52,651 bases of DNA from positions 1 through 52,651 of the IMG/VR virus record IMGVR_UViG_3300037010_002190. The stretch is one strand, 5' to 3'. Positions 558-44,700 of the stretch are shown piece after piece. A program made the position numbers and the translations under genes. The notes beneath the pieces were generated by a model. It ran no database searches. It was not told the origin of the DNA and saw only the letters and a program-made list of their open reading frames with translations. The DNA comes from a virus. Position 1 is the first letter of the stretch. Every line of letters starts with the position of its first letter.

Positions 558-1076
558 ATGAAATTGAGTGATATCTTAGAAGAGAATGAACCTAAAAAAG
601 GAACGTATGCTGGTGTTCGTTATTCACCGGAATCAATCGAAGCTGTTCAAACATTTTTGAAAGAACATTCTATTCCTAATCCAGTTGCAGACGATAAAAT
701 TCACACAACATTATTGTATAGTCGTAAATTTTTACCCAATTACGAACCTAAAGGCAAACTAGCTAAGCCAATGCAGGCTAAGTTTCATCAGTATGATGTA
801 TGGAAAACGTCACCACAAGATGAAACACAAGAAAAGTGGAACTGTTTAGTTATGAAGTTGAAGTGTCCAGAATTAGAAGCTCTACACAAACAGTATATGG
901 ATGAACACAAAGCAACGTATGATTATCCTGTTTATACTCCTCACGTGACACTATCCTATAATATTGGAGATTATGATATCACAAAATTACCCAACTTTAC
1001 TGCTCCGTTACATATTACTGAAGAGTATGGTGAAGAATTAAATTTGGATTGGGCTAACACGCACGGTACTAAGTAA
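558..1076 (+). CDS. Acb1-like 2H phosphodiesterase (putative anti-CBASS protein)
   Basis: This 172-residue protein has two HxT motifs, H49-T-T51 in KIHTTLLYSRK and H129-V-T131 in PHVTLSYN, about 80 residues apart. This is the catalytic signature of 2H phosphoesterases. The HTTLLYSRK context resembles T4 Acb1 (gene 57B product), which hydrolyses cyclic oligonucleotide messengers of the bacterial CBASS defence. The first eight residues, MKLSDILE, contain an IxE site placed like the cleavage site of T4 capsid-targeting peptides. The ATG at 558 follows a GGAG ribosome site. Other 2H families (RNA ligase-like, cyclic phosphodiesterase) remain possible. The fold is clear; the anti-CBASS role is inferred from family resemblance. 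Confidence 0.75.
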   Translation: MKLSDILEENEPKKGTYAGVRYSPESIEAVQTFLKEHSIPNPVADDKIHTTLLYSRKFLPNYEPKGKLAKPMQAKFHQYDVWKTSPQDETQEKWNCLVMKLKCPELEALHKQYMDEHKATYDYPVYTPHVTLSYNIGDYDITKLPNFTAPLHITEEYGEELNLDWANTHGTK

Positions 1077-2602: not shown

Positions 2603-2620
2603 AGATAATTAATTATTTTG

Positions 2621-2651
2621 TTGACATTTTTAGAAGAGTACTATATAAATA
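2621..2651 (+). promoter_or_regulatory. Overlapping sigma70 and late promoter of the tmRNA gene
   Basis: TTGACA at 2621-2626, a 17-base spacer and TATAAA at 2644-2649 form a near-perfect sigma70 promoter. The same -10 region reads TATAAATA at 2644-2651, an exact T4 late promoter. Both would start transcription near 2656-2661, just before the acceptor part of the tmRNA. The overlap would allow transcription before and after the switch to the late sigma factor. Confidence 0.75.
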
Positions 2652-2834
2652 TATGTAATGGTTGTTAACTTTCTTTTGGAAAGGGTTTCAAGACACGGGT
2701 TCGACTCCCGTCCGGTCCACTTAGAGCATTGAACCAGTGTTCTAAGTGGGCCGGTCCAGGCTTCGATTGGGACAATGAGTACTTAAGCAAGCAACTCGGT
2801 AGGCGATGACCGTAAATCAAGCAAAAGCAGAAAT

Positions 2835-2876
2835 GCAAACGACTCATATTACGGGGAAACTCGTCTAGCTGCTTAA
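2835..2876 (+). other. tmRNA tag-peptide reading frame (ANDSYYGETRLAA)
   Basis: The codons GCA AAC GAC ... GCT GCT TAA read A-N-D-S-Y-Y-G-E-T-R-L-A-A-stop. The AND start and LAA end are the conserved parts of proteobacterial tags (E. coli: ANDENYALAA); the middle is variable. LAA is the ClpX-recognised end. The resume codon is taken as GCA by analogy. Confidence 0.9.
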
Positions 2877-2920
2877 TGCTCTAGTGGGGTGCGAAACGCC
2901 TTATTAACCAACGTTTCATA

Positions 2921-2947
2921 AAGGGGGAACTTCGGTTCCCCTTTTTT
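2921..2947 (+). terminator. Rho-independent terminator of the tmRNA gene
   Basis: GGGGAAC (2924-2930), UUCG tetraloop (2931-2934) and GTTCCCC (2935-2941), followed by six T. This is a textbook terminator with a very stable loop. Confidence 0.93.
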
Positions 2948-2999
2948 ATTACACTCATCACATTATATATAGGTTAAGCAAAATCAATTTACACAAGAC

Positions 3000-3938
3000 A
3001 TGAAACGAACATCTACCAGCGAATTCATACAAAAGTCAGAAAAAATACACCAAGGACGTTATGATTACTCATTGGTAGTTTACATAAAAAATAATCAAAA
3101 GGTAAAAATAATTTGTCCTAGCCACGGAATATTCGAACAGACCCCAGTAAATCACTTATCGGGTGGAGGATGTGTCGTTTGTTGGAACCAGAAAAGAAAA
3201 AACGATTCAAATTGTCGCAGTTCTAGGGAAGCATTTATAGAAAAAGCTAGTGTGATACATCATGCGGTATATGATTATTCGTTGGTTGAATACACAAACG
3301 TACACACAAACGTAAAAATTATATGCAAAATTCATGGAATATTTGAACAAACACCTGGAAACCACCTTTCAAGAAAAACTAAATGCCCTCAATGTTCTTT
3401 AAACAATATGACATTAACAGTTGAACAACAAGAAAATGCACGTATGAAATTTATTCAAAAAGCAAACAATGTACATCAACGTAGATATGATTATTCATTG
3501 GTTAAATATATTTCATGTTCAAAAAAAGTAAAAATAATTTGTCCTAATCATGGAACATTCGAACAAACCCCAGACAAGCACATTTATGGGAAAAGTCCTA
3601 CTGGTTGTCCTCAATGTTCGCCTTCAGTATCACGTCCAGAAATAAATTGGTTAAATGTGTTAGGAATTACTTATCGTCAACATAAAATGAAACTGGATAA
3701 CAAAACCATTACGGTTGATGGTTTTGATCCTTCAACAAACACAGTGTATGAATTTTTAGGAGATTTTTGGCATGGAAATCCTCAAAAATATAAATCAGAT
3801 GACATCAATCCTAAAAATCATAAAACGTTTGGAGAGTTGTATCAAGCAACCGTAAACCGTAATACACTAATAACAAGTAATGGTTATAGGTTAGTACTTA
3901 TGTGGGAAAGTGATTGGAATATGCTACCCATTAAGTAA
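3000..3938 (+). CDS. Putative homing endonuclease with Cys/His repeats and Vsr-like nuclease end
   Basis: The 312-residue protein contains three copies of a repeat of about 60 residues: F-x-x-KA-x-x-VH-x-x-x-YDYS-x-V-x-Y, then I-x-CP-x-HG-x-F-x-Q-x-P and a closing CxxC. These look like small zinc-binding DNA-contact units (DUF723-type). The C-terminal part has VYEFLGDFWHGNP and LVLMWESDW, like the Vsr/EDxHD fold of phage homing endonucleases. Relatives with the same plan lie at 10258 and, on the minus strand, at 14791. It sits directly after the tmRNA terminator and before the ClpP-like operon, as expected of an inserted mobile gene. It would cut a cognate site in related genomes. The target is unknown, and the start has a poor ribosome site. 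Confidence 0.7.
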   Translation: MKRTSTSEFIQKSEKIHQGRYDYSLVVYIKNNQKVKIICPSHGIFEQTPVNHLSGGGCVVCWNQKRKNDSNCRSSREAFIEKASVIHHAVYDYSLVEYTNVHTNVKIICKIHGIFEQTPGNHLSRKTKCPQCSLNNMTLTVEQQENARMKFIQKANNVHQRRYDYSLVKYISCSKKVKIICPNHGTFEQTPDKHIYGKSPTGCPQCSPSVSRPEINWLNVLGITYRQHKMKLDNKTITVDGFDPSTNTVYEFLGDFWHGNPQKYKSDDINPKNHKTFGELYQATVNRNTLITSNGYRLVLMWESDWNMLPIK

Positions 3939-4002: not shown

Positions 4003-4743
4003 ATGAAAAAAAGTCAAAAACTATTTATGAAGTCGGAAGATTATGACACCGAATCAACAGTAAGTATTGTACATCCTCCTGCTTTCCAATATTACTCGAA
4101 TGTCAATCAAGCAGTTGAACATTGGTTTTATATTAGTTCAGCAATTCGTGATCCTAGTGAATATACAGATATGACGCATACAATCCGATCTGCCAGTCAA
4201 TATGATACAATTTATATTTGTCTCAATACTCCAGGAGGAAGACTGGATACAGGCATCCAACTAGTCAACGCTATGCGAGCTTCTCAAGCTAGTATCGTTG
4301 CTGTACTAGAAGCTGAGGCATCTTCCATGGGAGCTATTCTATTCTTAGCTGCAGATCAACATATTGTTCATGAAAATTGTAGGATGATGTTCCATGATTT
4401 TTCTGGAGGTGCAAGTTCAGGAAAGGGTAATGAACAATTCAAAGAATTAACAGCAGCAATCCAATTATATAATAAGTTAATGAAGAATGTCTGCGTTCCG
4501 TTCTTGTCTGAAGATGAAGTTGATCGAATTATCAAAGGAGAAGATTTTTGGATGGATTCAGACGAAATTACCAAACGATTGGAGTTGGTGTATAAACAAC
4601 GAGAAGAACCAGAAATTGAAGTAGGAGAAGTTGTAGTTGAACCTTCTAAAGTAAAGCGTTCGAAGAAAATGAAACCTGCACCAACACCACCGGCTGAAAT
4701 TCCAGTTGAAGCTGTAGTTGAAGCTAGGCGGCAACGCAAGTAA
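4003..4743 (+). CDS. ClpP-like serine protease
   Basis: The 246 residues contain the ClpP/crotonase-type core. LNTPGGRLDTGIQLVNAM is the GG-containing oxyanion segment. ASSMGA carries the catalytic Ser (S108), MFHDF the catalytic His (H131), and D181 in KGEDFWMDSDEI is the likely Asp. ClpP forms barrel peptidases that degrade substrates fed by AAA+ unfoldases. The C-terminus has a Lys/Pro-rich tail of about 45 residues, absent from bacterial ClpP. Some phages use ClpP-fold enzymes as prohead proteases, but this gene stands with primase and topoisomerase, far from the head genes, so a proteolytic role in the cell is more likely. It has its own sigma70 promoter and ends 6 bases before the primase ATG. 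Confidence 0.82.
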   Translation: MKKSQKLFMKSEDYDTESTVSIVHPPAFQYYSNVNQAVEHWFYISSAIRDPSEYTDMTHTIRSASQYDTIYICLNTPGGRLDTGIQLVNAMRASQASIVAVLEAEASSMGAILFLAADQHIVHENCRMMFHDFSGGASSGKGNEQFKELTAAIQLYNKLMKNVCVPFLSEDEVDRIIKGEDFWMDSDEITKRLELVYKQREEPEIEVGEVVVEPSKVKRSKKMKPAPTPPAEIPVEAVVEARRQRK

Positions 4744-10257: not shown

Positions 10258-11397
10258 TTGTCTGATATCAGTTTTAGCACAATCACTTTTATTGATAAAG
10301 CTAACTATGTACATCAATTCAAGTACACATATGAAAATTGTATATACGATTCAGTGCATACAAAAGTTGTCATAACATGTCCAACTCATGGGGATTTTAA
10401 GCAAACACCAGGAAATCATCTGTCTAAGCGTAGTGGTTGTCCTAAGTGTGCAACAGATTACAGAATACAAAAGAACACAAAATCTGTTGAACTGTTTTTA
10501 CATAACGCGCAGGTGCGTTTTCATAACAAATATGATTATTCTAAGATAAAATACGTGAACACAAAGACAAAGATTGAAATAGTATGTCCAGAACACGGAT
10601 CTTTTTTTCAGTCTCCGGAGAAGCATATAACATCAAAAATTGGATGTCCAGCATGTGCTTCAAAACACACAGCTAAACTATTAAGTATGTCATTTGAAGA
10701 ATTTGAAAAAAAGTCTTCTGTTGTACACAACAACAAGTATGATTATTCAATATCTAAAGACAATTTTGGGGATCACGATAAGATTGACATTCAGTGTAAC
10801 CAGCATGGAATATTTAACCAAACGATCACCAACCACTTGCATGGGAATGGATGCCCACTCTGTGCGAAAGAAAATCAATTTTTAACTCAAGCTGAATTTA
10901 TAAGTAAGTCTACACAAATTCACGGAAATGTATATGATTACAGACATGTTAATTATGTTAACACAAAAACCCCTGTTATCATATTATGCAGTCACCACGG
11001 ACGATTTAACCAAATACCACAAATTCATTTGCAAGGAAGTGGGTGTCAACTGTGTAGTCGTTCTGGTTTTTCAAAGAAAGCTATAGGTTGGTTAGATTCA
11101 GTATCCAATATAGAACATATTTTTATACAGCATGCTGGGAACGGTGGTGAATTTGTATTACCTGGGAGTAAAAAACGTGTTGACGGGTACTGCAAGGAAA
11201 CAAACACCGTGTATGAGTTTCATGGAGATTGTTGGCATGGCAACCCAAAAAAATTTAAAGATACTGATCATTGTCATCCATTAAATAAACGTATAACTGC
11301 AGGTGAATTGTACACACGAACAGTTGACAAAGACTTATTGATACAACAGTTAGGATTTAACTTAATTATTATGTGGGAATCAGATTACAATGAATGA
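10258..11397 (+). CDS. Putative homing endonuclease with four Cys/His repeats
   Basis: Same architecture as the protein at 3000, but with four repeats. Each has a (Y/F)-x-YDYS-type segment, CP-x-HG-x-F-x-Q and a CxxC pair. The nuclease-like end contains VDGYCKETNTVYEFHGDCWHGNP and LIIMWESDY. The frame begins at a TTG (10258). An upstream ATG in this frame is blocked by TAA, and the first repeat starts only a dozen residues in, so TTG is the likely start; its ribosome site is weak. The 3' end overlaps the gp52-like start by 8 bases, so the element is inserted exactly at the boundary of the topoisomerase gene, a favoured homing target in T4-like phages. Confidence 0.7.
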   Translation: MSDISFSTITFIDKANYVHQFKYTYENCIYDSVHTKVVITCPTHGDFKQTPGNHLSKRSGCPKCATDYRIQKNTKSVELFLHNAQVRFHNKYDYSKIKYVNTKTKIEIVCPEHGSFFQSPEKHITSKIGCPACASKHTAKLLSMSFEEFEKKSSVVHNNKYDYSISKDNFGDHDKIDIQCNQHGIFNQTITNHLHGNGCPLCAKENQFLTQAEFISKSTQIHGNVYDYRHVNYVNTKTPVIILCSHHGRFNQIPQIHLQGSGCQLCSRSGFSKKAIGWLDSVSNIEHIFIQHAGNGGEFVLPGSKKRVDGYCKETNTVYEFHGDCWHGNPKKFKDTDHCHPLNKRITAGELYTRTVDKDLLIQQLGFNLIIMWESDYNE

Positions 11398-14790: not shown

Positions 14791-15750
14791 CTATTTCATG
14801 TTTTTGTGGTGGTTATCTCTAAAATCGCTCTCCCAACACGTAATTAGATTATATCCCATGTTAATTATTGTTTGTTCTCTGGTTACTGTTCGGTCATATA
14901 GTTGTTTTGATGTTAAACGTTTGTTAAATGGATGACATAACTCCTCTGGTTTAAATATTTGTGGATTTCCGTGAACTGCGTCTCCGTAAAACTCATATAT
15001 CGTATTTGTTTCCCTACAGTACCCATCAGCTCTAAATCTTGTTCCGGGAATTTTGAATTCCCCAACATTCCCCGCATGTTCTATATACAAGTTATTGTCA
15101 GTTGATTGTATGGTTAACCATCTAATAGACTTCTTTGAAAACCCCTGAGGTTGACATTTTGGACAACCTATACCCCGTAAGTGTACTACTGGAGCTTGTT
15201 TAAATACGCCATGCTCATGACATAATATATTGATTTTGTCATGAGTTGACTTATACTCAACATCATCATAAGCATATGTGGTTCCATGTACCATATATGC
15301 TTGTGATTTAAATTCTACTAATGATTTTCTCTTATGTTCTGCTTTATATGAGTTTGCACATATCGGACATCCCGATTTTCTAGTGATGTGATTAGTCGGG
15401 GTAGATGTAAACCATCCGTGAACAGGACACCCTATAATAACGGGTGTTTTACTGTTTTTATATACAACTTTTGAGTAATCGTATTTTGAATCATGTGTTG
15501 CGTTACCTTTATGTATAAACTCCTGAACTGTTGATGTTCGTATTTTTGTTCTAGTATTAACCCCACAACCAGGACACCCATTGCCACGTAAGTGGTCGTT
15601 TGGTCGTTGGTTAAAGACACCATGTACGTCACAAACGATCGAAACTTTATCAGCACTTGTTTTATAATTTACCAAACTATAGTTAAATTTATCTCCATGT
15701 ACCTTTTTAGCTTTTTCAATGAATATCACTGTGTTATGTTTTGATGTCAT
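14791..15750 (-). CDS. Putative homing endonuclease with three Cys/His repeats
   Basis: Third member of the family seen at 3000 and 10258. Repeats contain VHGDKFNYSLVNY, CDVHGVFNQRP, CPGCG, CPVHGWF and CPICA. The nuclease-like end has ADGYCRETNTIYEFYGDAVHGNP and LITCWESDF. FYGDAVHGNP has Ala where the other two have Phe or Cys before WHG, so one aromatic of the motif is lost. The gene follows the ribonucleotide reductase stop with TGATAATG, suggesting reinitiation; an overlapping ATG at 15762 is also possible. It lies directly downstream of an intein-bearing gene. Confidence 0.7.
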   Translation of the reverse strand: MTSKHNTVIFIEKAKKVHGDKFNYSLVNYKTSADKVSIVCDVHGVFNQRPNDHLRGNGCPGCGVNTRTKIRTSTVQEFIHKGNATHDSKYDYSKVVYKNSKTPVIIGCPVHGWFTSTPTNHITRKSGCPICANSYKAEHKRKSLVEFKSQAYMVHGTTYAYDDVEYKSTHDKINILCHEHGVFKQAPVVHLRGIGCPKCQPQGFSKKSIRWLTIQSTDNNLYIEHAGNVGEFKIPGTRFRADGYCRETNTIYEFYGDAVHGNPQIFKPEELCHPFNKRLTSKQLYDRTVTREQTIINMGYNLITCWESDFRDNHHKNMK

Positions 15751-15752
15751 TA

Positions 15753-18700
15753 TCAGCCACATTTACTATTTGAACACGATAAACATCTACGACAACCTTC
15801 TTGAAAAATCAACTGACCACCACACTCTCCACACGTCTCACCTTCTATTTTTTCCCCATCTTTAATGTATGTTGAAAGGAATTTACGAATTTGAAACAAG
15901 AATGATCCAACAAAAACGTCATCAACTTTATCTAACACGGCCACAACATTTTTGATAAGAACTCCATGGCGAAGGTTTAAACTGATAGCCCGTGCAATTT
16001 TGGTTGGATTATTGTCTACCTCAATTTTCTTTTGTGTGTCTTCAATCCATTTTGTGGGAATACCCTTATCATAAGCAAGATTAATCAATCGTTCAACCGC
16101 ATCGTGTGTGGTGACAGACTTCTCATAATGATTTGTGTGTACAAAAAAAGCGATTGGACGAGTACCAGAATTATCAAGAATTGTTGTCAAGTACCATTTT
16201 TTCCCATCAGCTTTAATAGTAGAAATTGTAGCTGGAGCTTGGTTTGGAACTTTTACATCTTCGATAATAATTTCTTCTTCACTGACATGCTCTGTTGATT
16301 CTTCTTTTGCTGACAATACAGTTGACATCGTTCCACTGCGGTATGTAGTTAGTCCTTTAATGAAACCAGTATTGTATGCATTCAAATACAACTCTTTAAA
16401 CTGATCAAACGAATACTCATTTGGCAAATTAACAGTTTTTGATATTGCAGAATCTATGTATCGTGCAAAACCTACGAGATCTGTTACGTGTTGATCAGCT
16501 GAAAGTTGAGTTGTCGTTGATGCCCAGTCTGCAGTTGCATCCCATTCACCCCGTCTCTTGAGCCAACGAACACCATAATCTTCACACAGAACTTCTTTAA
16601 CAAGTCCACGGTTTTTATCGATCTTGTATGTAATTCCATTGTGTGTACCTTTTAACATCTCTTCATCACCTTCTTTGGTGAATTTAAACATGTCTGTTTC
16701 ATACCACTCACCTTCATACCATTTAGGGCACACATCACGTATCTCTTCTGGCATTGTGTTGACAATAACAGTTCGGACATATTCAGCCATAAATACAGGT
16801 TCAATGCCACCAGACACAATGTTAGACATTATGCTCGAATTACCTGTAGGTTGAATTGACATTAGAGAACTGTTCCGAATTCCAGTTTTGGTCATATCAT
16901 CGATCACAGATACAGGAAGACCCAAACTCTGAATGAATGGAGATTTAACGTGTAACTCCGGTACACAATACTTAAACATACCTTTCTCTTTCGCTAAATT
17001 GACAGAAGCTGTGTATGTTGCTTTTGAGAATATTTGCATTAAATCATTTTGTAATTTAAGAGCTCGTTCAGATGCAAATGGTATTTTTAGCATATACAAC
17101 GCACTTCCCCACCCCATTAACCCACAACCAATTCGACGTTTGTTTCTCATAGAATCGATGTATTCTGGCAACGGCGCTGATGAATATTCGTTAACATTAT
17201 CAAGAAAACGGACCATATATTCTGCATGTTTTTCTATTTGATCAAAATCAAATCCTGTATGATCTTTGTTAATAAACTGTGTTAAGTTCAACGACGACAA
17301 ACAACAGATGTTACCCGGAGCAAGTACTTGTTCACCGCAGTTTCCTGTATAACACCACTCTGTTGGAAATACATGTTGATTGTGATATACACTAATGTCC
17401 CACACTTTACTAGTACCACATGGAACGACAGAGCTTACTTCTAAGTAACTGTTCGATATGTGAGATCTGGTTTTATTGGAAACAAAATTGACAACATCTT
17501 CCAACTTAGAACTTTTACTTGGGTGTGAAATGTTAAACACATTAAAAAAGTTAATTATGGCACTTCCATTAATTGCAACATCCCATCTTTCATATTCACG
17601 ATCATGCGTTTTTCCATTAGGAAACGATACTTGAGAATTTGACAGCGTTCGAGACTGTAAACTAACGGGAACTCCAGCAAACCCTAATAGTTTTCCAAAA
17701 TTCTTTGCTAGGTTTGATCCTGATGTGGTTAGTGTAATTCGCTGGTTTTTGTCATCAAACAACACACACCCATCTGCACTTAGTAGTCCATCCACAAATC
17801 CCTGGATGTAGAGATCATTACTACACCACACACTTGATGGAATATCTTTTTCACCAGGAATCATCCCATACTTCGTAAGCAAGTTGTTTACAAATTCTTG
17901 ATCAGCCCACTGGATGTACAATTCACCTTCTCTTTCACAGATTGTTGATGGATTAGACTTTAAAGAATTTACAATGCTTAACACACGTTCAGCCATTTCA
18001 CGCTCGTGTATCCCAAACGTAATCCCAACATCATATTCGTTGTTTGTGGGATCGTCTTTGTATTTCTTATCAAACCAACCATCACCAACCATATAACCCA
18101 TTAAAAATCCTTCATCGTGGGTTAGCGACATATCACCATATATTCCTATATTTTCATTTCGGTTTAATGGGATAAGGTCTCCAGGTTTAAGATCAGACGC
18201 ATCTACTTTATACAATCGGTTCATTCGTTCATCATACACAGGCCACCGATGTTGTTTTGTTGATTTTACTGATTTGTTTACACCAAATGTAATTTCTAAT
18301 AGTTCCTCGTTTTCACCAGACATTCTACACTCAGCCTCTGCCCATACACCATCAAGAGATTTGACCTCAAACTTTAACCCCTCTAACTGTTCTATTGGAA
18401 CAATCTTGTTTTTTGTGTGAACTAGTGTTCCTGCAGGCATCGATGGATTAGTTGCCATTATATGTTCACCATATGATAACGGATTAAAGTTATTTGCCCG
18501 ATCTAAAAACAATACTCCAGGTTCCGCACGTTGGTATGTAGAATCCATAATTAAATTCCATAACCAAGTTGCGGATATAACAGCATGAACTATGATTGGA
18601 TGACCCAAACTTTTCCATCGTTGAATGTTTCCATCCCAATCAGTTTTATAATTAATGTGTGTGGTATCTGGAAAAACTAATTCCCATTGATTCAACTGAT

Positions 18701-19463
18701 CTTTTTCTTGCTGTAGATCACTTATTAGTTGTTTGTTTGATTCAGTTAACTCATCAGTTTGTAATAATATAGTTTCAATTTGGTTGATTCGCCCAATTCT
18801 GTACATAAAATCATCAGTACAATTGACAGAGATATTAAACTTTGTTAGACGACCGGCTTGTTGTTTTGCTGTAATAAATTCGACAATGTCTGGATGCCAC
18901 ACATCTAGAACAGACATCATAGCACCTTTTCGGATCTTGCCTTTGGCCTTTTTGTTTACTGAAGTTCTTCCAGATCCTGCAGTAATAATTTCAGATGATT
19001 TATCAAACAATTCCATGTATTTAACAGCGCCTGGTGTCTCAACCCCTACTCCAGCAATAAATGAACCTCTGGGGCGGATATATGAAAAGTTTTCTCCCCA
19101 TCCACCTTCTGATTTTAAAGTAAATGCTTGCCCTTGCAGATTTTTTAAAATTCCATCTAAAGAGTCAATATCAAACTGTGCTCTTGGGGCAACGAAACAG
19201 TTTGCAAGTGTTGTTCCCTTCCATTCTGTTCCAGCATTTGACATAATTCTGCCACCTGGAACAACTTTAAAATTGGATAGCATGTTATAAAATATATTTT
19301 CCCATTCATGTTTCAGTGTATCCGTGGTTTCTACGCTGGAAATAGCCTTTGCAACTCTACGTAATGTATCATCTATTGTTTTATCTTTGTGATCTTTATA
19401 TGTCGTTCTCCAAACTTCTTCGGAAAAAGAATCCTCAAATATTGTACTGGGTGTGTTAAGCAT
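15753..19463 (-). CDS. nrdJ: Ribonucleoside reductase, class II (adenosylcobalamin-dependent), with intein
   Basis: The 1,236-residue reading frame consists of an RNR of about 868 residues plus a 368-residue intein (341-708). VPGGRIMSNAG (68-78), NCFVAPR with Cys89, EPGVLFLDRAN and NPCGEQVLAPG (after splicing) are RNR motifs. The C-terminal CGECGGQLIFQEGC with CLSC and SKCG is the zinc-finger-like tail typical of NrdJ. The enzyme reduces ribonucleotides using vitamin B12 and needs no small subunit, unlike T4 NrdAB; this suits a cobalamin-containing host. The spliced NPCGE motif supplies the thiyl-radical Cys (residue 709), so splicing is needed for activity. It is downstream of dCMP deaminase on the minus strand. 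Confidence 0.9.
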   Translation of the reverse strand: MLNTPSTIFEDSFSEEVWRTTYKDHKDKTIDDTLRRVAKAISSVETTDTLKHEWENIFYNMLSNFKVVPGGRIMSNAGTEWKGTTLANCFVAPRAQFDIDSLDGILKNLQGQAFTLKSEGGWGENFSYIRPRGSFIAGVGVETPGAVKYMELFDKSSEIITAGSGRTSVNKKAKGKIRKGAMMSVLDVWHPDIVEFITAKQQAGRLTKFNISVNCTDDFMYRIGRINQIETILLQTDELTESNKQLISDLQQEKDQLNQWELVFPDTTHINYKTDWDGNIQRWKSLGHPIIVHAVISATWLWNLIMDSTYQRAEPGVLFLDRANNFNPLSYGEHIMATNPSMPAGTLVHTKNKIVPIEQLEGLKFEVKSLDGVWAEAECRMSGENEELLEITFGVNKSVKSTKQHRWPVYDERMNRLYKVDASDLKPGDLIPLNRNENIGIYGDMSLTHDEGFLMGYMVGDGWFDKKYKDDPTNNEYDVGITFGIHEREMAERVLSIVNSLKSNPSTICEREGELYIQWADQEFVNNLLTKYGMIPGEKDIPSSVWCSNDLYIQGFVDGLLSADGCVLFDDKNQRITLTTSGSNLAKNFGKLLGFAGVPVSLQSRTLSNSQVSFPNGKTHDREYERWDVAINGSAIINFFNVFNISHPSKSSKLEDVVNFVSNKTRSHISNSYLEVSSVVPCGTSKVWDISVYHNQHVFPTEWCYTGNCGEQVLAPGNICCLSSLNLTQFINKDHTGFDFDQIEKHAEYMVRFLDNVNEYSSAPLPEYIDSMRNKRRIGCGLMGWGSALYMLKIPFASERALKLQNDLMQIFSKATYTASVNLAKEKGMFKYCVPELHVKSPFIQSLGLPVSVIDDMTKTGIRNSSLMSIQPTGNSSIMSNIVSGGIEPVFMAEYVRTVIVNTMPEEIRDVCPKWYEGEWYETDMFKFTKEGDEEMLKGTHNGITYKIDKNRGLVKEVLCEDYGVRWLKRRGEWDATADWASTTTQLSADQHVTDLVGFARYIDSAISKTVNLPNEYSFDQFKELYLNAYNTGFIKGLTTYRSGTMSTVLSAKEESTEHVSEEEIIIEDVKVPNQAPATISTIKADGKKWYLTTILDNSGTRPIAFFVHTNHYEKSVTTHDAVERLINLAYDKGIPTKWIEDTQKKIEVDNNPTKIARAISLNLRHGVLIKNVVAVLDKVDDVFVGSFLFQIRKFLSTYIKDGEKIEGETCGECGGQLIFQEGCRRCLSCSNSKCG
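17340..18443 (-). mobile_element. Intein with LAGLIDADG homing endonuclease in nrdJ
   Basis: It occupies residues 341-708 of the NrdJ frame. The N-terminal splice block is SMPAGTLVHT (Ser1), and block B is STKQHRWP with the T-x-x-H pair. Two LAGLIDADG motifs, GFLMGYMVGDG (452-462) and FVDGLLSADG (556-565), form the homing endonuclease. The C-terminal block is VWDISVYHNQHVF ... CYTGN followed by extein Cys. The penultimate residue is Gly rather than the usual His, while the terminal Asn and +1 Cys are intact. All parts for splicing and homing appear present. Confidence 0.9.
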
Positions 19464-30779: not shown

Positions 30780-32354
30780 TTACTTTTGTGATGGAAGATT
30801 ATAAACCCAGACTGAATTACCACAATCCCATATTCGCTCATATTTGTTGAGTTTCATGTTTTGATATTCCGTAAGCAGTGGGTCAAACGTTTTTAATATT
30901 TTTGACAATTTGTGTTTTTGAAATTGTATTCTAGAATACGTTATATAATTACCTTTTTCTTGGTTAAAGTAAAAATAATTAGGAGCAGAGTTGTGTGACA
31001 AAACAAATCCTAATTGTTTATACATATTCCCAGTATTCCATCGTTTATCTGAGTATGTTACAATTGATGCATTGTTATATTTCCGTACGAAATACTTGAA
31101 CAATTTAGATGGACCTCCAACAACTGTAGTATAAAGTTCAGAACAATATCGGAGTAACTCAAATGAAGTCTTTTTCGTGTATCTTGCTTTTGAAAAAGAC
31201 ATACATGCTACCAATGTTTCGTTATAGAATAATCCTATAGTTAGGAATGCTGATTTGCAACTTCCTTGTATATGTGTGCGTTCAAAAAAATCATTTCCTA
31301 CCTGAGATGTAATTTCTCTCACTACACACTTTCTTGCGAATATCTTAGTATTAAAACCGAGCAGTGAAGATAGTCGTGATTTGATTTTTTCTGCAGACTT
31401 TAAATATTCGTGTTCAAATATGTGAATCAAACGAATTCCTTGTGTTTCACATTGTTGTGTTTTGTGTAAATGGTATAATGGTTCTTTGTAATGTTGACTG
31501 TGCCAGTATAAACCATCACACTCTATTGCTAGATTATAACTTGGAATGTATATGTCCAACTCTTGTGGGGATATAATATTTCTACTTTTTTCACAATACA
31601 CTCCTAACGATTGAACATATTCTCGTATTAAATTTTCAAACGATGAACTATGGTCTTGTGTTGGAATTTCCAGATGATCCAAAATCTTCGAAATATATGC
31701 TTGACTTACACCCAATTTTTCTGCTACCACAAAAGTGCTTTTGTACTGTTCATATAACTCAATCATTTGTTCCTTATTAGAAAGAATGTTTCTTGTTATA
31801 TCATTAATTTTAGATCTGTTATAATTAGTGTCACCATATCTGTCAATCATAGTTAAATCACGTTTAATTTTTACATTTTTATCTTGATATGCATACTCAA
31901 CACCCCGTTTTAATAAATTAGTTTGTCTACGTCTGGTGTCTGAATCTGAAATGCAAGCAGGACAATTAGGACTACAGAATTCGTTGAATGCTCTTTGTGT
32001 GGTAGTATTCCAACCTAGTTTACCCCCACATTTACATGTGGGTGCTTCTGTTGTATTATTTTTAATATAATACAATCGTTCACGTAATGTGCTCGTTTGA
32101 GGCAAGAATTGTGTTTTTGTCTGTATATGCTCCCAAATCTCAGCATCACTTTTACTTCTTGCAGATATGATTTTTCTTGTATCATCAACGACATCACACC
32201 ATTTAACAACATCATCTATAGTTTTGATATTTAGATATTGTCTAAGACGTTTGGATAGTGTACTAACATATATTCCATTATTAGCAGCAACTTCAGTTAT
32301 GGAAGCTGTTGTATTCAATATTGTTTGGATCATTTCTTCAGTATTTGTTATCAA
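30780..32354 (-). CDS. Putative homing endonuclease (Vsr/EDxHD-like), minus strand
   Basis: 524 residues with a different plan from the three Cys/His-repeat enzymes. The N-terminal part has HTH-like segments (SITEVAANNGIYVSTLSKRL) and CKCGGKLGW with a second Cys pair. A middle KLGVSQAYISKILDHLEIP is another HTH. The nuclease core is ELDIYIPSYNLAIECDGLYW then LIHIFEHEY, as in EDxHD homing endonucleases. It lies between gp25 and gp6, opposite to all other baseplate genes, with a late promoter of its own. The start is TTG at 32354; an ATG at 32333 is an alternative. Insertion splits what is normally a continuous gp25-gp6 order. Confidence 0.75.
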   Translation of the reverse strand: MITNTEEMIQTILNTTASITEVAANNGIYVSTLSKRLRQYLNIKTIDDVVKWCDVVDDTRKIISARSKSDAEIWEHIQTKTQFLPQTSTLRERLYYIKNNTTEAPTCKCGGKLGWNTTTQRAFNEFCSPNCPACISDSDTRRRQTNLLKRGVEYAYQDKNVKIKRDLTMIDRYGDTNYNRSKINDITRNILSNKEQMIELYEQYKSTFVVAEKLGVSQAYISKILDHLEIPTQDHSSSFENLIREYVQSLGVYCEKSRNIISPQELDIYIPSYNLAIECDGLYWHSQHYKEPLYHLHKTQQCETQGIRLIHIFEHEYLKSAEKIKSRLSSLLGFNTKIFARKCVVREITSQVGNDFFERTHIQGSCKSAFLTIGLFYNETLVACMSFSKARYTKKTSFELLRYCSELYTTVVGGPSKLFKYFVRKYNNASIVTYSDKRWNTGNMYKQLGFVLSHNSAPNYFYFNQEKGNYITYSRIQFQKHKLSKILKTFDPLLTEYQNMKLNKYERIWDCGNSVWVYNLPSQK

Positions 32355-35685: not shown

Positions 35686-35717
35686 GAAGTTGATAATATA
35701 ACAATTGGTGTTAATTG

Positions 35718-38700
35718 ATGACAAACTTTTCCGATTACAAAAAAGTCAGAACAAACCTCTTTGAACAATTACCAGAAACGCTTCAGACAGATGTAAACGA
35801 AGCGTTTTTAGAAAACACGGTTAATCGTTATTTAACTAAATCTGAACTTTCCACTATATTTGGTACTATCGGAGAACAATCCCCATCCGTAGCTACATCC
35901 ACAAACATTGTAGAGTCTGAGGTTCAAAGACAAGCATATCAACTCCAGCCACTACTGTTCTCAAATATTGCGACTGTTAATCACATTTCATCTTACTCTG
36001 ACATTTTACGAGAAGCAGAAAATTTGGGTGTGGATCCACTCAGGCTACCACAATGGGGTAATACTACATCTTTTAACTTTGCTCCTCCGATAGATTTTGA
36101 TAAACTAGTTAACTGGTATCAATATTTTTGGTATGACGTTGGGAATCCAAATTCTTCTCCACAATACATCACGATAAAAAACAATTGTGCTGTTTCTACT
36201 GCACAATTGAAAACAAAGCAAACACAATATGATAATTTAATTCAATCTGGAGGAACACCGGCTGAGTTAGCCGCAATCCAAGTAGAACTTAATATTCTTG
36301 AGATTGCAAACAATTGTGCATGTTATGGAAACAACAACACAGGATGGGGAACAACACAATGGGATGATAATCCACTAAATTGGTGGAAAGAAATTAACCC
36401 AAGTATAATAACACCAAGCTCTCCATCTAGCGGTGACTTGTGGTTTAATACCAGTACATCTCAGTTGATGTACTATGATGGAACAGCATGGGAAATATTC
36501 ATTCCGGCTGAAACATCTTTTGGTAGTTTTGCATGGGATATGATTTCAAGCAGTATAGCTGGGATATCATGTAAAATGCAAAATGATCCATGGTCTCAAC
36601 AAAATAAATGGGTCCACCAAGAAGATGTACCAAACGTCGCTATTGCTAAGCGGGCTCAAATGCCAATAATTGAATATAATCCATTCCTTGAACTCAATGA
36701 GTGGACATACACGAAACGTATTTGGTCATACAGAGATTCATATTTGGATAACTGGACCACAGTAACAACATCCCCATCTTTATATGAGATGGGAATACCA
36801 ATAAATGTTACCAATATACAGAATCCAAAGTTAATCACAGTATCTGGAGACCATACAGAAATATTAACTAGAACGAATAAAATCAGGATTAGTGTTGGAT
36901 CGATAAATTCATTTTTCACTGTTGTATCTTCATCGTTTTCAGCAGCTAGTAATACTACAACGATGGTAGTGGTAGAATCTATTTCAACATTACTCCCATT
37001 CTCAAGTAATACTGTGGTAAAATTTGAATTAACAACAACTCAGAGTGGGAAGCCATGGGGTGGGTTTTTAAAACATTGGGCGTTGCTGACATCTGAAACT
37101 CCTGTTCCAATCAATACTCAGGTTGAGAATCCTGTAGTACTCTTGGAATCGTTCACTCAAAACTCTGTCGATCAACAAGTTTTTATGTTAACAAGTAATA
37201 CCTTTCTTACATCTCAAGACACAATCAGAGTATATGTTAATGGTCAGAGACAATATGGGACTTTCTTGGAGGGTTGGTCAACTACAGGAACCAACTTTAT
37301 TAGTACAGATGATGCTACATATAGTAGCATCAGTGGAACGAACTATGTCGGTCAGTCCGGAAAAATATATAATGGAGTATTAGGAAATGCTATTAGTTTC
37401 TTAAGAGTCCCAAAATTTGGATCAACGATTAGAATAGAACTTCATCCAGCTGCTTTGTCTGATCAATATCTCGGAGCTGTAGAAGTCAGAACAAGCACTG
37501 ATGCTGATTTTAACACAACACTGTTTCAAACAGATTATATAACTTTAGCAAATTTTAGAAAAGTTGATCAAGTTAAAACACAGACAAACCAGTACCCTAT
37601 ATTCGATTTGTTTGACGCAGCTGGGAACACCGCATATCAAGCGAACAGCATATTTGTATTTGAAGAAAATCAAAACTTTGCAATAAACACTAATATTGGG
37701 AAACGAATCGTTGTTAAATCAACAAACGCATCTCCCAAAGATTATAGTTTTCAGCAACTGTTAGTTGACCCATTGACGGGAAGTTTACTGTGTTATAAGG
37801 ATATGTGGGGGGTCAGTTCAACAAATCCTGAAGGTCTCCAGTCAATTTGGAGAACTGGAGTAACAGACAATGAATATATCCCAAAATATGTTAATGAATA
37901 TAGATTAACAGATGGAGAACAGTACACAGACTCCACAGGAGCAGTACAAACCGTTGATTTGCAAATAGGAAGTTCAGGAGGTTGTTGGGAGATTCCACAA
38001 CAACTGGTTTATAATGTTCATCACGAAAACAGATCCACGTTGTTATTTTCTGAATTGTATTCTCACTTAAAATCGATAATTGATGCTCAACCACAGCCTC
38101 AAGGATTTGAGAACATGACATCTAGTTATTATAGACTCATTGAAAATCCAAACTATGGGTTAGGTGGAACTATAAAGGAGTTTAACGACAGTTATGATAC
38201 GTTCTTGTCTGCATTGTTCCAAACAACCAGCACACCGAGATCTATTATCGATTTTGCTCAGACCCAAAATGACTATAATATTTTATCGTTACAGGATTAT
38301 TGTATTAAGAATTTTGTATCTCTTATTACTGGAACAACCAACACATTTGTTGTTGCATCAGATGTTTATGATTTGTTTGCAACTAAAGCGATTGAGAACT
38401 TTGAACAAAATAGTTTGAATATTTCTGTGTTTGGTGACACGACGGCTTATGATTCTGTATCAGGGAAGGGTGTTAAGAACTGGATAGCAACACTACCATT
38501 TCTCAAATTAGCATATCCAGTAACACCACTCGTTATGATAGATGAACAACTTGGAATCAAACAAGTGATGCATCATGACGGACACATATCTAGTATTAAT
38601 CTTCCAACTTCAACTGTTCAGTCATTGAACAATCAAGTAATTACCATTACAAATGGAGCTAAAGGATCACACAACTCAAGACCTATATGGACTGGAGTAT

Positions 38701-41700
38701 ATAATGGAATGTTCTGGTTAAATGTAGTGACAAACACTCTTTACAGGTTTACTGTAGCTGAAGTAGGTCCAACAATTCCTCCAACAACATACGAAATTGG
38801 ATCTTTGTGGTTGAACGATTTAACAGGATTATTATATAAGAGGTCATCAGCAAATCCACAGGGATGGGAATTAGTTTCAGGTGTTGTTGGAGATGTTGAA
38901 ATGGCTTGGGTTCAAGCAGATATTGAAACAATTATTGTTAATGTTATATATCAAACAGAAATGAAGTTGTATGAAGCTGTGCCTGCATTTGAGCAGCTTG
39001 TGTTTGACTTTAACTCATTAGTGACTACTCAACCTAACAACTCAGTTCAAGGAACAGAACAAAATACATTCGTTAGCTATTTACAAAATCAATATTATGA
39101 TTACGTCCAACAAACTCATTCCGATCCATTAACAACCACGTTCAAACTGAGTGACCCATTTACTTGGAACTATAGCAGTGTAACTAATATTCCTCCTGTA
39201 AAAAGCAATGGTTCTGCAACAGAGTGGAGTGGTAGTTGGGAATCAATATATGAACTCAACTTTGGGACTGCATACCCTCACATTCTTCCGTGGAGACTGC
39301 AAGGGTATTTTGATAAACCAACATGGTGGGATCTTGAGTATGCAGATCACACCGGAGTTCGTCGTTGGTCAACTCAGATGTGGACTAATATCAAAAATGG
39401 TGTAATTCCAGTTGGATATAATACCCCTACAGGGGTAGCTGGAACTGGTTTTGTTAGTCAAGTAGATGGTTATTATTTTATGTGTGTGGATACATTGACA
39501 GATCAGTTATTACCACCATATGTTTCCGGTAGCACACAGACGTTTTTAAATGATTATAGCATATACATTGCTCCTGTGGGGTCAACGTTGAATGATTCGT
39601 TTAGTTTTGGAAATCAGGGTCCAACAGAAAGGTCCTGGAGAATTTCAACATATTTCAATTATGGTTTATTGCACATTGCTTTTAGAATGCAGCCTGTTAA
39701 ATTCTTACATTCGACGTTTGGTCCATCGTTCATAGAAGTTGCTGGATTGCAGGTTGATCTAAGTTCACAAAAAGTGTATTCACACAAAGACGCAGTGTTT
39801 CATGGAGATTTAGACCAGAACAACCAAGTTATTAAAATAGCTGGTCTAAACCAGTGGTATGTTAATTTCAATAGATTTAATGATTTAGATATTAATGTAT
39901 CTAATTTTAGAGAAACATGGACAAGCTGGGATGCATTATTATCATACCAAACCGAATCTTTTGTTAATACCAAATCTTTACAAATATATAATGACAATTT
40001 TTCTGTTATTCCAGAAGATTATCAAGTTTTAGTTAAAAAAACTCCTGATTTGTCTGATTATTGGATTGATACATTGTTGGTGACTACCCAAACTGTTGGT
40101 AAAGATTGGTCAGTATCTGATAATTTTAAAATCCCACGGTATGATGGAGATGATTGGACATTTAGTGTACACACACCTTCACCAATCCAACATGGATTAA
40201 CTTACTATGGTGTTAAGAAATATCCTTGTGTTTTTGATCCTATATCAGACAAGGGATTTATTCCGAACACGATGTCTCTCCCTTGGGCTATACTAAAAGG
40301 ATCTATCCAACCTGGACAAGAGGTAATATACGAACCGGATGATACATTAACTTGGTTTACAGGATCTCCAGTTCAGGTATCTTCTTTGGGATCTTTACCT
40401 GCTCCGTTAATTGCAAATACTACGTATTATATCATCAAAGAAGATGACCAAACGTTTAAGCTGGCAACTTCTTATACAGATGCAGTTGTGGGTTTAGCGA
40501 TTGATATAATTACAACTACAACAAGCCAAGTTTATGTTGAGGAAGTTGCATCAACATTCATTGCTTTGGATGGAGTTAGGACTTCAAATGTTTGGAACCA
40601 CCTATCAATCGATAAACGTTTTGTCTATCAAGATAACACTCCTGGAGTTTATAGAGGAGTACAAACTTTAATTAACGTAATTGATGGGTATGTTTCCTAT
40701 TTGAAAGATCTGGGTTGGAGTTTTAATCAATCTGAATCAACGGAAATTGACATCGATACAGGGAAAATTGTAAGTTGGCAAAATGAGATTGAACGCTTGA
40801 TCACAAGCATATACACTGGTTTGGGGACTGTTACTGTAATGTACAATACAGGTTCTCACGTATCTAATGTGGTTGAATATCAAGAGGTTAATCCATTCAG
40901 AAATAATGTTTGGTTCAATACACCTCGTGGAATCGTGTCAGACATATACACAGGGTCATATACCGACATCCGTACAGAGACTACAGTGTACGACCAATCC
41001 GGAAATACACTTCCAAGTGATTATTTGTATGTATTCCGCTCAGACTTGAGAACTAGACTTCGTGGATGTTCTTTAAGTGGTAGTGTATATTCTCAGTCCG
41101 GCAGAACTAATATGACTGATGATGAAACGATAAGACCATATAATGATCCACACATTGGTGGTATGCACTTATTTATCGATGGTTATGAACATATTATTAT
41201 GTTTAATGATTACACTTCAGAAGGATATCTTGTTTTTGATCCTTTCTTGGGTCTTAGTGCTTCTAAATTTACCTTAGATTTTGAGAAGAACACATCGATT
41301 ACATATAGACCGAACGTCGGAGGTTATTATCTCAGTGAAGGTCAATTGGTACAGAATATAGAAAATTCTGTTGAAACTATGGGTATGTATTATGATACAT
41401 ATCAAGTCAATGAAACTTCGAATTATATTGATTACGCACGATCATTATTAGGATACCAACCTCCAAAGTATCTTGATCAACTAGGAATGAGTTCAAAATC
41501 TAAGTTCATATTCTGGAGAGGTATGATTCAAGACAAAGGCTCAGTGAATGCTCTTACGTCTTTCATAAATGCAAAAGATTTTGTGAGTGTAAAAGTTGAT
41601 GAAATATGGGCTTATAAAATCGGTGAATTTGGAAACGTTGATAATAAACAATATTATGACATCAACATTCAACCAAAAGATATTGGAAAAAATGAATTAA

Positions 41701-44700
41701 GACTACAATTCACAACAGCAGATAATCCTGTTGAACAAACATTCGTTGAAATTGCTACCAACGATCAAGTTCGTTGGGAACATCTACCAGATCAACAACA
41801 ATATGTCAATTCAACCACTAATTTATATTTTGAAGCAGATATTACAAATTCAACAACGATTCAAGTAAACAACTCACTAGAGGTTTACGAGCCAGGATTT
41901 AACGGTCCGAACATCGACGTTCATATTCCAAACGTCGGAGTTGTCGACGGGGTGATGGTTGTAGTGCATGATACAAAAGATTCTGTTTCTTCTGTTTTAG
42001 TTCCAAATGAGGATTATGTGAGAGATAATAATGACGTTCTGACAATTCTCTCAGATTTTGATAGTCAAATTGGTTTTGATAATGATGTGTACATTACTAC
42101 TTATCTAACCACAATGAATAAGTCAAAATACAATCCAGCATTCTTGATCGATAAGAAGACTATGAGTAAATTGGCTACAATAATGTTGTGGCACCCTGCA
42201 GTTGGATTCCACTATCAGGTCCCCATGAGTTTAATTGACTCATATCAGGATTTGGATAATGCTGTGTACAACAACACTTTATTGTTAAATAATGTGGATG
42301 CTCCTAATCCTTTAAAGGCTTGGAGTGTAGCTGAGAGTGGCAAGATTTGGTTAAGAACAAACTCTATTGATTATGTTCCATATTACAATTCTACAATATT
42401 CCCTGATGTTCGAGACCGAATTCGTAATTGGGGAAGATTGGCTGATTGGAGTGCCTTTGATGTTTATCAATGGACAGAATCTCCTGTTCCACCAGCACAA
42501 TGGACTCAGTATGTAACCCAATCTGTTAATAATGTACAGATTGCCCAAAATGATAAGCCAACAGGTATTCCGTTACAAAATCTGTTACGCAGATGTACGT
42601 ATGTTGCTTCGGATCTTACAACGCAGACAACAGATTGGGAATCTTTGATTTATGATCCATTTATTGAACGGAACGTTTACGTTGATGGGAACGGTGTAAT
42701 TATTCCTTCCAACTCCGGACAAATACAGGCTGTGAGTGTTACTTTTGGTGGAGGGGGGTACGAAACATCTCCAAACATTGCAATATCAGGGGGAGGTGGT
42801 TCTGGGTGTGTAACAACAGCACAGATTGGGATTGTAAATCCTGTACCCACAGGATATCCGCTTAGTACAACAATGAAAGTTATAAATGGTGGCACGGGGT
42901 ATTCTGTAAGTTCTCCTCCGTCTATCAACATTGTAGGTCCTACAATCGGAACCGTAGCAACAGCAACTGCCACTGTAGTTCAAAAAACTATTAAGTACGT
43001 TTCAAACATCACATTAACAAACGGAGGAAGCAATTTCTCTTCTGGTTCTACTGTACAGGTTACAATCGAGAGTGTTGATGGAAATGGATCTGGAGCAGAG
43101 GCAGAAGTAGTGCTGGCTCCTATTTCGACTACAACAGGGTTGTTTATTGAAGACATTGTTGTTTCAAATGGTGGAGATAATTATCGTTACGATGAAGTTA
43201 AGCCAATCTTTGTACCAAACAACAACCCAAATATTCCAACTCTTCTGGCTGTTGGTTATGCCCAGGTAGTGTCGGGAGGAATTTTTGAACTGGAAATTCA
43301 TAACTCTGGATCTGGCTACACTGTTGATGGAGTGTTTGATGTTCGTCTTTATTCAGTTGATGGTTCCGGTTACGGAGCTGCTGGAACAGTAACAATTTCT
43401 GGAGGATCAGTATCTGATGCTCAAATCACAAACCCAGGATCTGGATATTCACAGAATGCTATCGTAGAACTTTCTAGTTCATATTCTGGCTCTGCAACAA
43501 CTACTTTTTCCATAGTTGGAGTTATGAAGGGGTCTATTGGTTCGGTTACTTTAGCGTCAGATGTAGGTGCTATTAATTGGTATAATCCTCCTCTGTGGGA
43601 TTGGACAAACAAAACAGTTCCTTTAACGATGACTACTCCTTCTGGAAGTGGAACTGGAGCACTTTTCAGTGTTGAACTTGGAAATGCTGGTTTCACATAT
43701 GTTCAAAGTATCAAGGTTACTAATGGTGGTTCTGGATTTACATCAGCTCCAATTATAACAATAACCGATCTTACAGGAAAAGGTGCTGGTGCATCAGCAA
43801 CAGCTCAGGTTAGTCAAGAAATAACTGGGGTAGTTGATACGATTACAGTAACAAATGTTGGAAGTGGATACACAATAGTACCTACTGTTGTGATTGACAG
43901 CCCTCCAGGATACAGTCCAGGTTCAATTGCTTACTCAAAGGCCTCAGCTATCGCGTCAATTTCAGCAAATAACTCATCTGGTGTAACAGGAATAACACTG
44001 AAGAGTAGTGGTGAAGGATATACAATTGCTCCATCAGTCGTGTTTGAAAATACTGGGACTGGTGGAATTGGTGCAGAAGCTCATGCTGTATTAAAGTTTA
44101 TTGAAACGGGACGAGTTGATAGCATTGTTGTTACAAATGGTGGTTTAGGATATACATCAGTTCCAGAGATTAAAATAAACGACGATGGAGTTTTCGGGGC
44201 CCCTGCAGGTAATGGAGCGACAGCAGTTGCTACATTAACACAAATTCCTACCGGAACAGTATCTTCTATTACTATTAATGATGGTGGAACTTACTTGTTT
44301 GAACCTAACTCATTAGCAGACACAGGATCGGTAGCAATTGATATTAATTCTTCTGGTTCTGGAATTGGAGCAACTGCAACTGCAACATTATCTGACGTAA
44401 AAACTATGTCAAATTACATTAAAACTCTTTCGTTGGGTTCTGGAGGAAATAAGTATGAGCTCGAAGATGTTAGAAATAACCTAGTTCAAGTTTTAGCTTC
44501 CGACCCAAATGGAGGTGGAGTCCCAGCATTGGTTGGATATGGAGTTATGGATTCTGGAGGAGTTACAAGAGTTGAGGTTGAGAATCCTGGAAGTGGTTTA
44601 CAAGATAACACATATTCACTAGACTTCTTCGGAAGTGGATATGGAGCTTCTGCAACTGCTATTGTATCAGGTGGAAGAGTTGTATCAGTTTCCGTAACCA

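Follow-up and report, generated by a model that had tools for sequence, protein, structure and literature searches.

A permuted tmRNA gene of betaproteobacterial type with an apparently virus-only tag and a ClpP neighbour in a divergent T4-like phage

The DNA analyzed here (the window) is a 52.7-kb linear virus record of IMG/VR. Among its proteins are T4-type topoisomerase subunits, a primase, a DnaB-like helicase and a PDDEXK exonuclease. The topoisomerase subunit tested is about 35% identical or less to its best cultured relatives, and the window is part of the genome of a divergent T4-like myovirus. The features considered below are collected in Table 1.

Table 1. Position and evidence for features of the tmRNA locus and its neighbours in the window
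Feature	Position	Strand	Evidence
Anti-CBASS Acb1-like protein	558-1073	+	Pfam PF23474, 118.6 bits
Permuted (two-piece) tmRNA gene, betaproteobacterial type	2607-2948	+	RF01850, RF04321, ARAGORN
Sigma-70-like promoter, TTGACA-17-TATAAA (11 of 12 consensus bases)	2621-2649	+	Sequence reading
T-arm ACGGG TTCGACT CCCGT (stem 2695-2699/2707-2711, loop TTCGACT)	2695-2711	+	Sequence reading, RF01850 alignment
3' acceptor strand CCGGTCC (2712-2718) and discriminator A2719	2712-2719	+	Sequence reading
Intervening segment, 28 nt, presumably removed in two-piece maturation	2720-2747	+	Permuted layout
5' acceptor strand GGGCCGG, 7/7 pairs with 2712-2718, the third G-U	2748-2754	+	Sequence reading; covariation
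Tag frame GCA AAC GAC TCA TAT TAC GGG GAA ACT CGT CTA GCT GCT TAA, encoding ANDSYYGETRLAA and stop	2835-2876	+	Sequence reading; tag class conserved
Intrinsic terminator hairpin, then T run	2920-2944	+	Terminator scan; last helix of RF01850
HNH/DUF723-type endonuclease-like gene between tmRNA and ClpP	3000-3938	+	PHROG 559
ClpP-type serine protease, syntenic tmRNA partner in the lineage	4003-4743	+	PF00574, PHROG 1827, PDB profiles, fold, triad

A preliminary description of this DNA had proposed a circularly permuted phage tmRNA, to be checked with the Rfam covariance models. Both two-piece models match above their gathering score: beta_tmRNA (RF01850) aligns with 2607-2948 over its full length (138.3 bits for a gathering score of 84, E = 3.3e-42, model positions 1-331 of 331), and tmRNA_permuted (RF04321) with 2660-2876 (120.8 bits). 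The ARAGORN prediction is likewise a permuted tmRNA (2630-2967), with a longer reading frame that continues into the true tag. The interval given earlier, 2621-2947, spans the promoter-like sequence to the terminator hairpin. The arrangement then described, a T-arm and 3' acceptor strand ahead of the 5' acceptor strand and tag frame, can be read directly from the sequence, and all seven pairs of the GGGCCGG/CCGGTCC acceptor stem form, the third being the G-U pair G3-U70, which gives alanine identity. The beta type of the gene hints at a betaproteobacterial host, a hint qualified by the wider spread of such genes described below.

The 3' end of the tmRNA reads A-C-T-T; CCA is thus encoded incompletely, and the host would have to supply it. 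The tag frame has both an Ala resume codon and a Clp-type C-terminal end. Upstream, promoter-like sites (at most two mismatches) were found at 30 of 67 related loci, against 5 of 67 after shuffling; the TATAAA site of the window is unlisted in the automated promoter scan, which required a T at the last -10 base. A cultured-phage counterpart was sought by DNA similarity to the window tmRNA, and the candidates were rejected, the matches being limited to terminator-like or short T-arm stretches.

The stems keep pairing in related phages, a point on which the preliminary description depended. Acceptor stems of the set of phages sharing the tag class were located through a sequence motif, independently of pairing. 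Twelve combinations were obtained; nine are in register, and these nine all pair at 7 of 7 positions, the 5' strands GGGCCAG, GGGCCCG, GGGCCGG, GGGCCTG, GGGCTAG, GGGGATG, GGGGCCG, GGGGCTG and GGGGGCG each occurring with its complement. Compensatory differences fall at acceptor positions 4-6, while G3-U70 is constant in all nine. Overall, 194 of 203 acceptor cells were paired, whereas 1000 shuffles averaged 154 paired cells and never exceeded 175; as the sequences are akin, this comparison is not a formal probability. Such compensatory change counts against the idea of a host ssrA gene recently captured or decaying, for example an integration-site fragment. Although tmRNA genes are often integration sites (PMC11915505), the present gene is complete, has a conserved position in many phage genomes and carries a tag that was not found in the bacterial genomes searched, and we hold a captured or decaying copy to be the most improbable of the explanations considered.

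The close phages L122 (7900-8420) and L123 (9480-9860) have the tmRNA coding part in common; in L122, the tRNA-like part is swapped for another with an odd T-loop, and a remnant of the old one persists. This difference is a natural domain swap within a tmRNA. The odd T-loops of some phage tmRNAs were considered as a possible novelty and set aside, GGCRGUA being the normal alpha-type T-loop. In L124 (9440-9580), a tRNA-like element with a T-arm and the acceptor strands AACACTC/GAGTGTT, which has no ARAGORN call, lies directly upstream of the tmRNA.

The window gene shares its permuted layout, its covariance model and the ANDxxY start of its tag with betaproteobacterial tmRNAs (RF01850; for example in Alcaligenaceae and Cupriavidus). 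The tags of these bacteria are 10 residues long (ANDESYALAA, ANDEKFALAA), whereas that of the phage has 13. Relative to ANDESYALAA, GExR (GETR in the window) replaces one Ala before LAA, so that three extra residues separate LAA from the counterpart of the SspB site. The pattern ANDxxYG(E/D)xx(L/F)AA, with ATGC immediately ahead, matched 100 viral contigs, nearly all of them permuted tmRNAs by ARAGORN. The same pattern, ATGC prefix included, gave no match among 84,980 bacterial and archaeal species; as a positive control, an ANDxx(F/Y/L)ALAA-like pattern with the same prefix was found at 67 places in these genomes, mostly betaproteobacterial tmRNAs. Two wider YG patterns, one of them without the ATGC requirement, had no match in 369 genomes of one class. 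An extended YG form is known from Xanthomonas as well (YGSDFAIAA); the main pattern would miss it, and 'virus-only' is therefore restricted to YG(E/D) tags. Within this limit, the searches support ANDxxYG(E/D)xx(L/F)AA as a virus-only tag class so far as tested, and with it the earlier suggestion that the tag is a phage-specific version. The further idea of the preliminary description, that such a version might outcompete or alter rescue by the host, is a conjecture.

The class comprises 24 different peptides, of which ANDAFYGEDRLAA and ANDAFYGEERLAA are the commonest, and is conserved at the peptide level over about 70 distinct viral sequences. Codons vary synonymously all along the tag, including at the positions left free by the pattern (Ala4, Phe5 and Arg10), which shows selection acting on the peptide. 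This weighs against the proposal of a decoy that would occupy host SmpB or AlaRS and block host rescue. Decoy action has been proposed for mycobacteriophage DS6A, whose RNA consists of the tRNA-like domain only, and inhibition of tmRNA is known for a similar molecule (PMC4131195, PMC11915505). In the phages studied here, however, the entire molecule is kept, including the 3' terminator; as a tag would be superfluous for a decoy, one that is retained and selected counts against this explanation, which we regard as very unlikely.

The window ClpP is recognized by Pfam PF00574 (45 bits) and PHROG 1827, and among the PDB profile matches listed all are ClpP. Its predicted fold (single-chain model, mean pLDDT 75) matches those of E. 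coli and Thermus ClpP, and the triad S108, H131 and D181 is invariant in nine sequences. An 'internal TAG' in several ClpP matches was discarded as a candidate; it looks like a normal stop inside the HMM match, and the one locus checked (L427) has an intact open reading frame.

ClpP-family matches occurred in 7 of 25 control contigs, such proteins being not rare in large phages. Presence of ClpP as such is thus not strongly associated with the tmRNA, and gene order was used as evidence instead. A ClpP search run blind to the tmRNA returned 21 loci. Once near-identical copies, a remote match (L461) and a contig cut just upstream (L452) were excluded, a permuted tmRNA was found upstream of ClpP on the same strand in 14 of 16 distinct phages, or 15 of 17 with the window, usually at a distance of up to about 1.2 kb; L444 and L456 belong to the ClpP lineage and have no tmRNA upstream. 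The order persists down to about 39 to 45% ClpP identity. In the nearest phages (L122 to L125; ClpP 68 to 76% identical in the best segment), the permuted tmRNA lies between a DHFR gene and the ClpP gene, and no gene separates it from the latter. The endonuclease-like gene found at this place in the window was not found in these four phages and is probably a mobile insertion of this phage only. In the unrelated phage L013, located through a tRNA-like pattern, ClpP is 30% identical and begins 2 nt past the tmRNA match.

In the larger group of phages with the tag class, an exonuclease gene precedes the tmRNA, as in phage Melnitz, and ClpP is elsewhere. Within the ClpP-linked lineage the tags differ, with ANDSVYALAA in L443, ANEGNFRLAA in L446 and ANDMAYDVEALYGVAA in L451; the extended YG(E/D) tag is therefore not required beside ClpP.

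The phage might, as large phages do with tRNAs, simply carry an ordinary spare copy of tmRNA that keeps host trans-translation running, the tag and the ClpP neighbour being without meaning. The several forms of phage tmRNA already known (PMC9004378, PMC11915505, PMC4131195), the host-like tags, such as ANDEQFALAA, of many phage permuted tmRNAs and the frequency of ClpP among control contigs would fit such a copy. It would not account for a tag class conserved as a peptide and absent from the bacterial genomes searched, nor for a tmRNA-ClpP order that withstands deep ClpP divergence and recurs in an unrelated phage, and we consider a mere spare copy unlikely.

We favour, as the probable explanation, a tag-and-degrade unit maintained by the phage, which would use host SmpB and AlaRS and probably feed ClpXP. 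As read from the sequence features, transcription of the phage tmRNA would begin at its own promoter and stop at its own terminator, and host tRNA-processing enzymes would cut the precursor in two, one RNA with the coding part and one with the acceptor part. The host would add CCA, and its AlaRS would charge the molecule with alanine through G3-U70. Host SmpB would then load it on stalled ribosomes, and the rescued ribosome would append the tag (A)ANDSYYGETRLAA. This tag ends in a Clp-type LAA and begins with an ANDxxY that resembles the part bound by SspB in E. coli; it would direct proteins to ClpX, and the adjoining phage ClpP of the lineage probably acts in the same degradation step. Neither SmpB nor SspB was found in 16 related phage records, many of which are incomplete.

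The length of the tag has an engineered parallel. Like the phage tag, the DAS+4 ssrA tag (PMC9382460) has added residues that set the SspB-binding part further apart from the ClpX-binding end; it was designed (AANDENY-SENY-ADAS) with a weakened end, whereas the phage tag retains LAA, and the parallel is an analogy. Since the LAA end and the ANDxxY start are kept and the linker is longer, proteins tagged by the phage are probably delivered to ClpX efficiently. A natural tag with a longer linker would offer a ready way to ask whether DAS+4 and other engineered tags mirror a solution reached by evolution.

The preliminary description had considered phage copies of permuted tmRNA to be rarely described, which was too strong. 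Two-piece phage tmRNA as a kind is already known: phage Melnitz was reported in 2022 to carry one, and 53 of 402 phage tmRNAs were two-piece (PMC9004378). A 2025 database holds 79 phage tmRNAs (PMC11915505), and older cases are on record (PMC4131195). Melnitz, a phage of Methylophilales, and its relatives resemble the window phage in being aquatic T4-like myoviruses with a permuted tmRNA and a promoter-like TTGACA-17-TATAAA sequence. The Melnitz gene is of the alpha type (RF01849) with the tag ANDNYVPVDYALAA, whereas that of the window is of the beta type; the Melnitz gene follows a PDDEXK nuclease gene and is accompanied by a glutamine riboswitch, whereas the window gene has a simple terminator and a ClpP partner. 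The same protease family is found in T4-like phages such as KVP40 (clpP, PHROG 1827). In the literature searched, outside of which lay most subscription journals and all preprints, we found neither the tag strings nor a description of the conserved permuted-tmRNA/ClpP neighbourhood. As far as tested, both the virus-only class of tags and the conserved position of ClpP beside the tmRNA thus appear to be new.

Beta-type permuted tmRNA genes are spread beyond this lineage. They are present in cultured phages of Pseudomonas aeruginosa, Stenotrophomonas maltophilia and Xanthomonas citri; the Pseudomonas, Stenotrophomonas and Xanthomonas hosts have a one-piece tmRNA. Stenotrophomonas phage Marzo and Pseudomonas phage SM1 are examples. 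In four such genomes (L462 to L465), these genes are mostly unannotated. One of them, Xanthomonas phage XacN1 (L462), also has a GOLLD RNA (RF02032, 227 bits) at 3359-3772, about 1 kb downstream of the permuted tmRNA. A tree of phage and bacterial tmRNA genes (116 columns), in which the window sequence is absent because it was lost in automatic extraction, is largely unresolved, and the bacterial permuted genes fall at several places among those of phages. This broad spread, which includes phages of hosts thought to have the one-piece form, makes the origin and spread of permuted tmRNA directly testable. A more far-reaching proposal joins two ideas, namely that the virus-specific tag, its lengthened linker and the phage ClpP form a tag-and-destroy system of large phages that, in infected cells, diverts what stalled ribosomes have made to fast degradation, and that phages may be a reservoir from which beta-type permuted tmRNA has moved among bacteria; we regard this combination as speculative and rather doubtful. 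The favoured explanation, if true, would mean that phages do not merely borrow ribosome rescue but mark proteins for degradation in a way of their own, possibly with a protease to match.

Several other genes of the window deserve mention. The Acb1-like gene is retained close to the tmRNA-ClpP locus in most relatives. A ribonucleotide-reductase-like gene on the minus strand (15753-19463) has an apparent intein, recognized by eye only, between ...NP and CGEQVL.... Four open reading frames (3000-3938, 10258-11397, 14791-15762 and 30780-32354) look like related HNH/treble-clef endonucleases and are probably mobile genes; the profile scan covered the first of them alone. Finally, an open reading frame of 3873 residues with many glycine-rich repeats lies on the plus strand at 35715-47336, and baseplate-like genes adjoin it.
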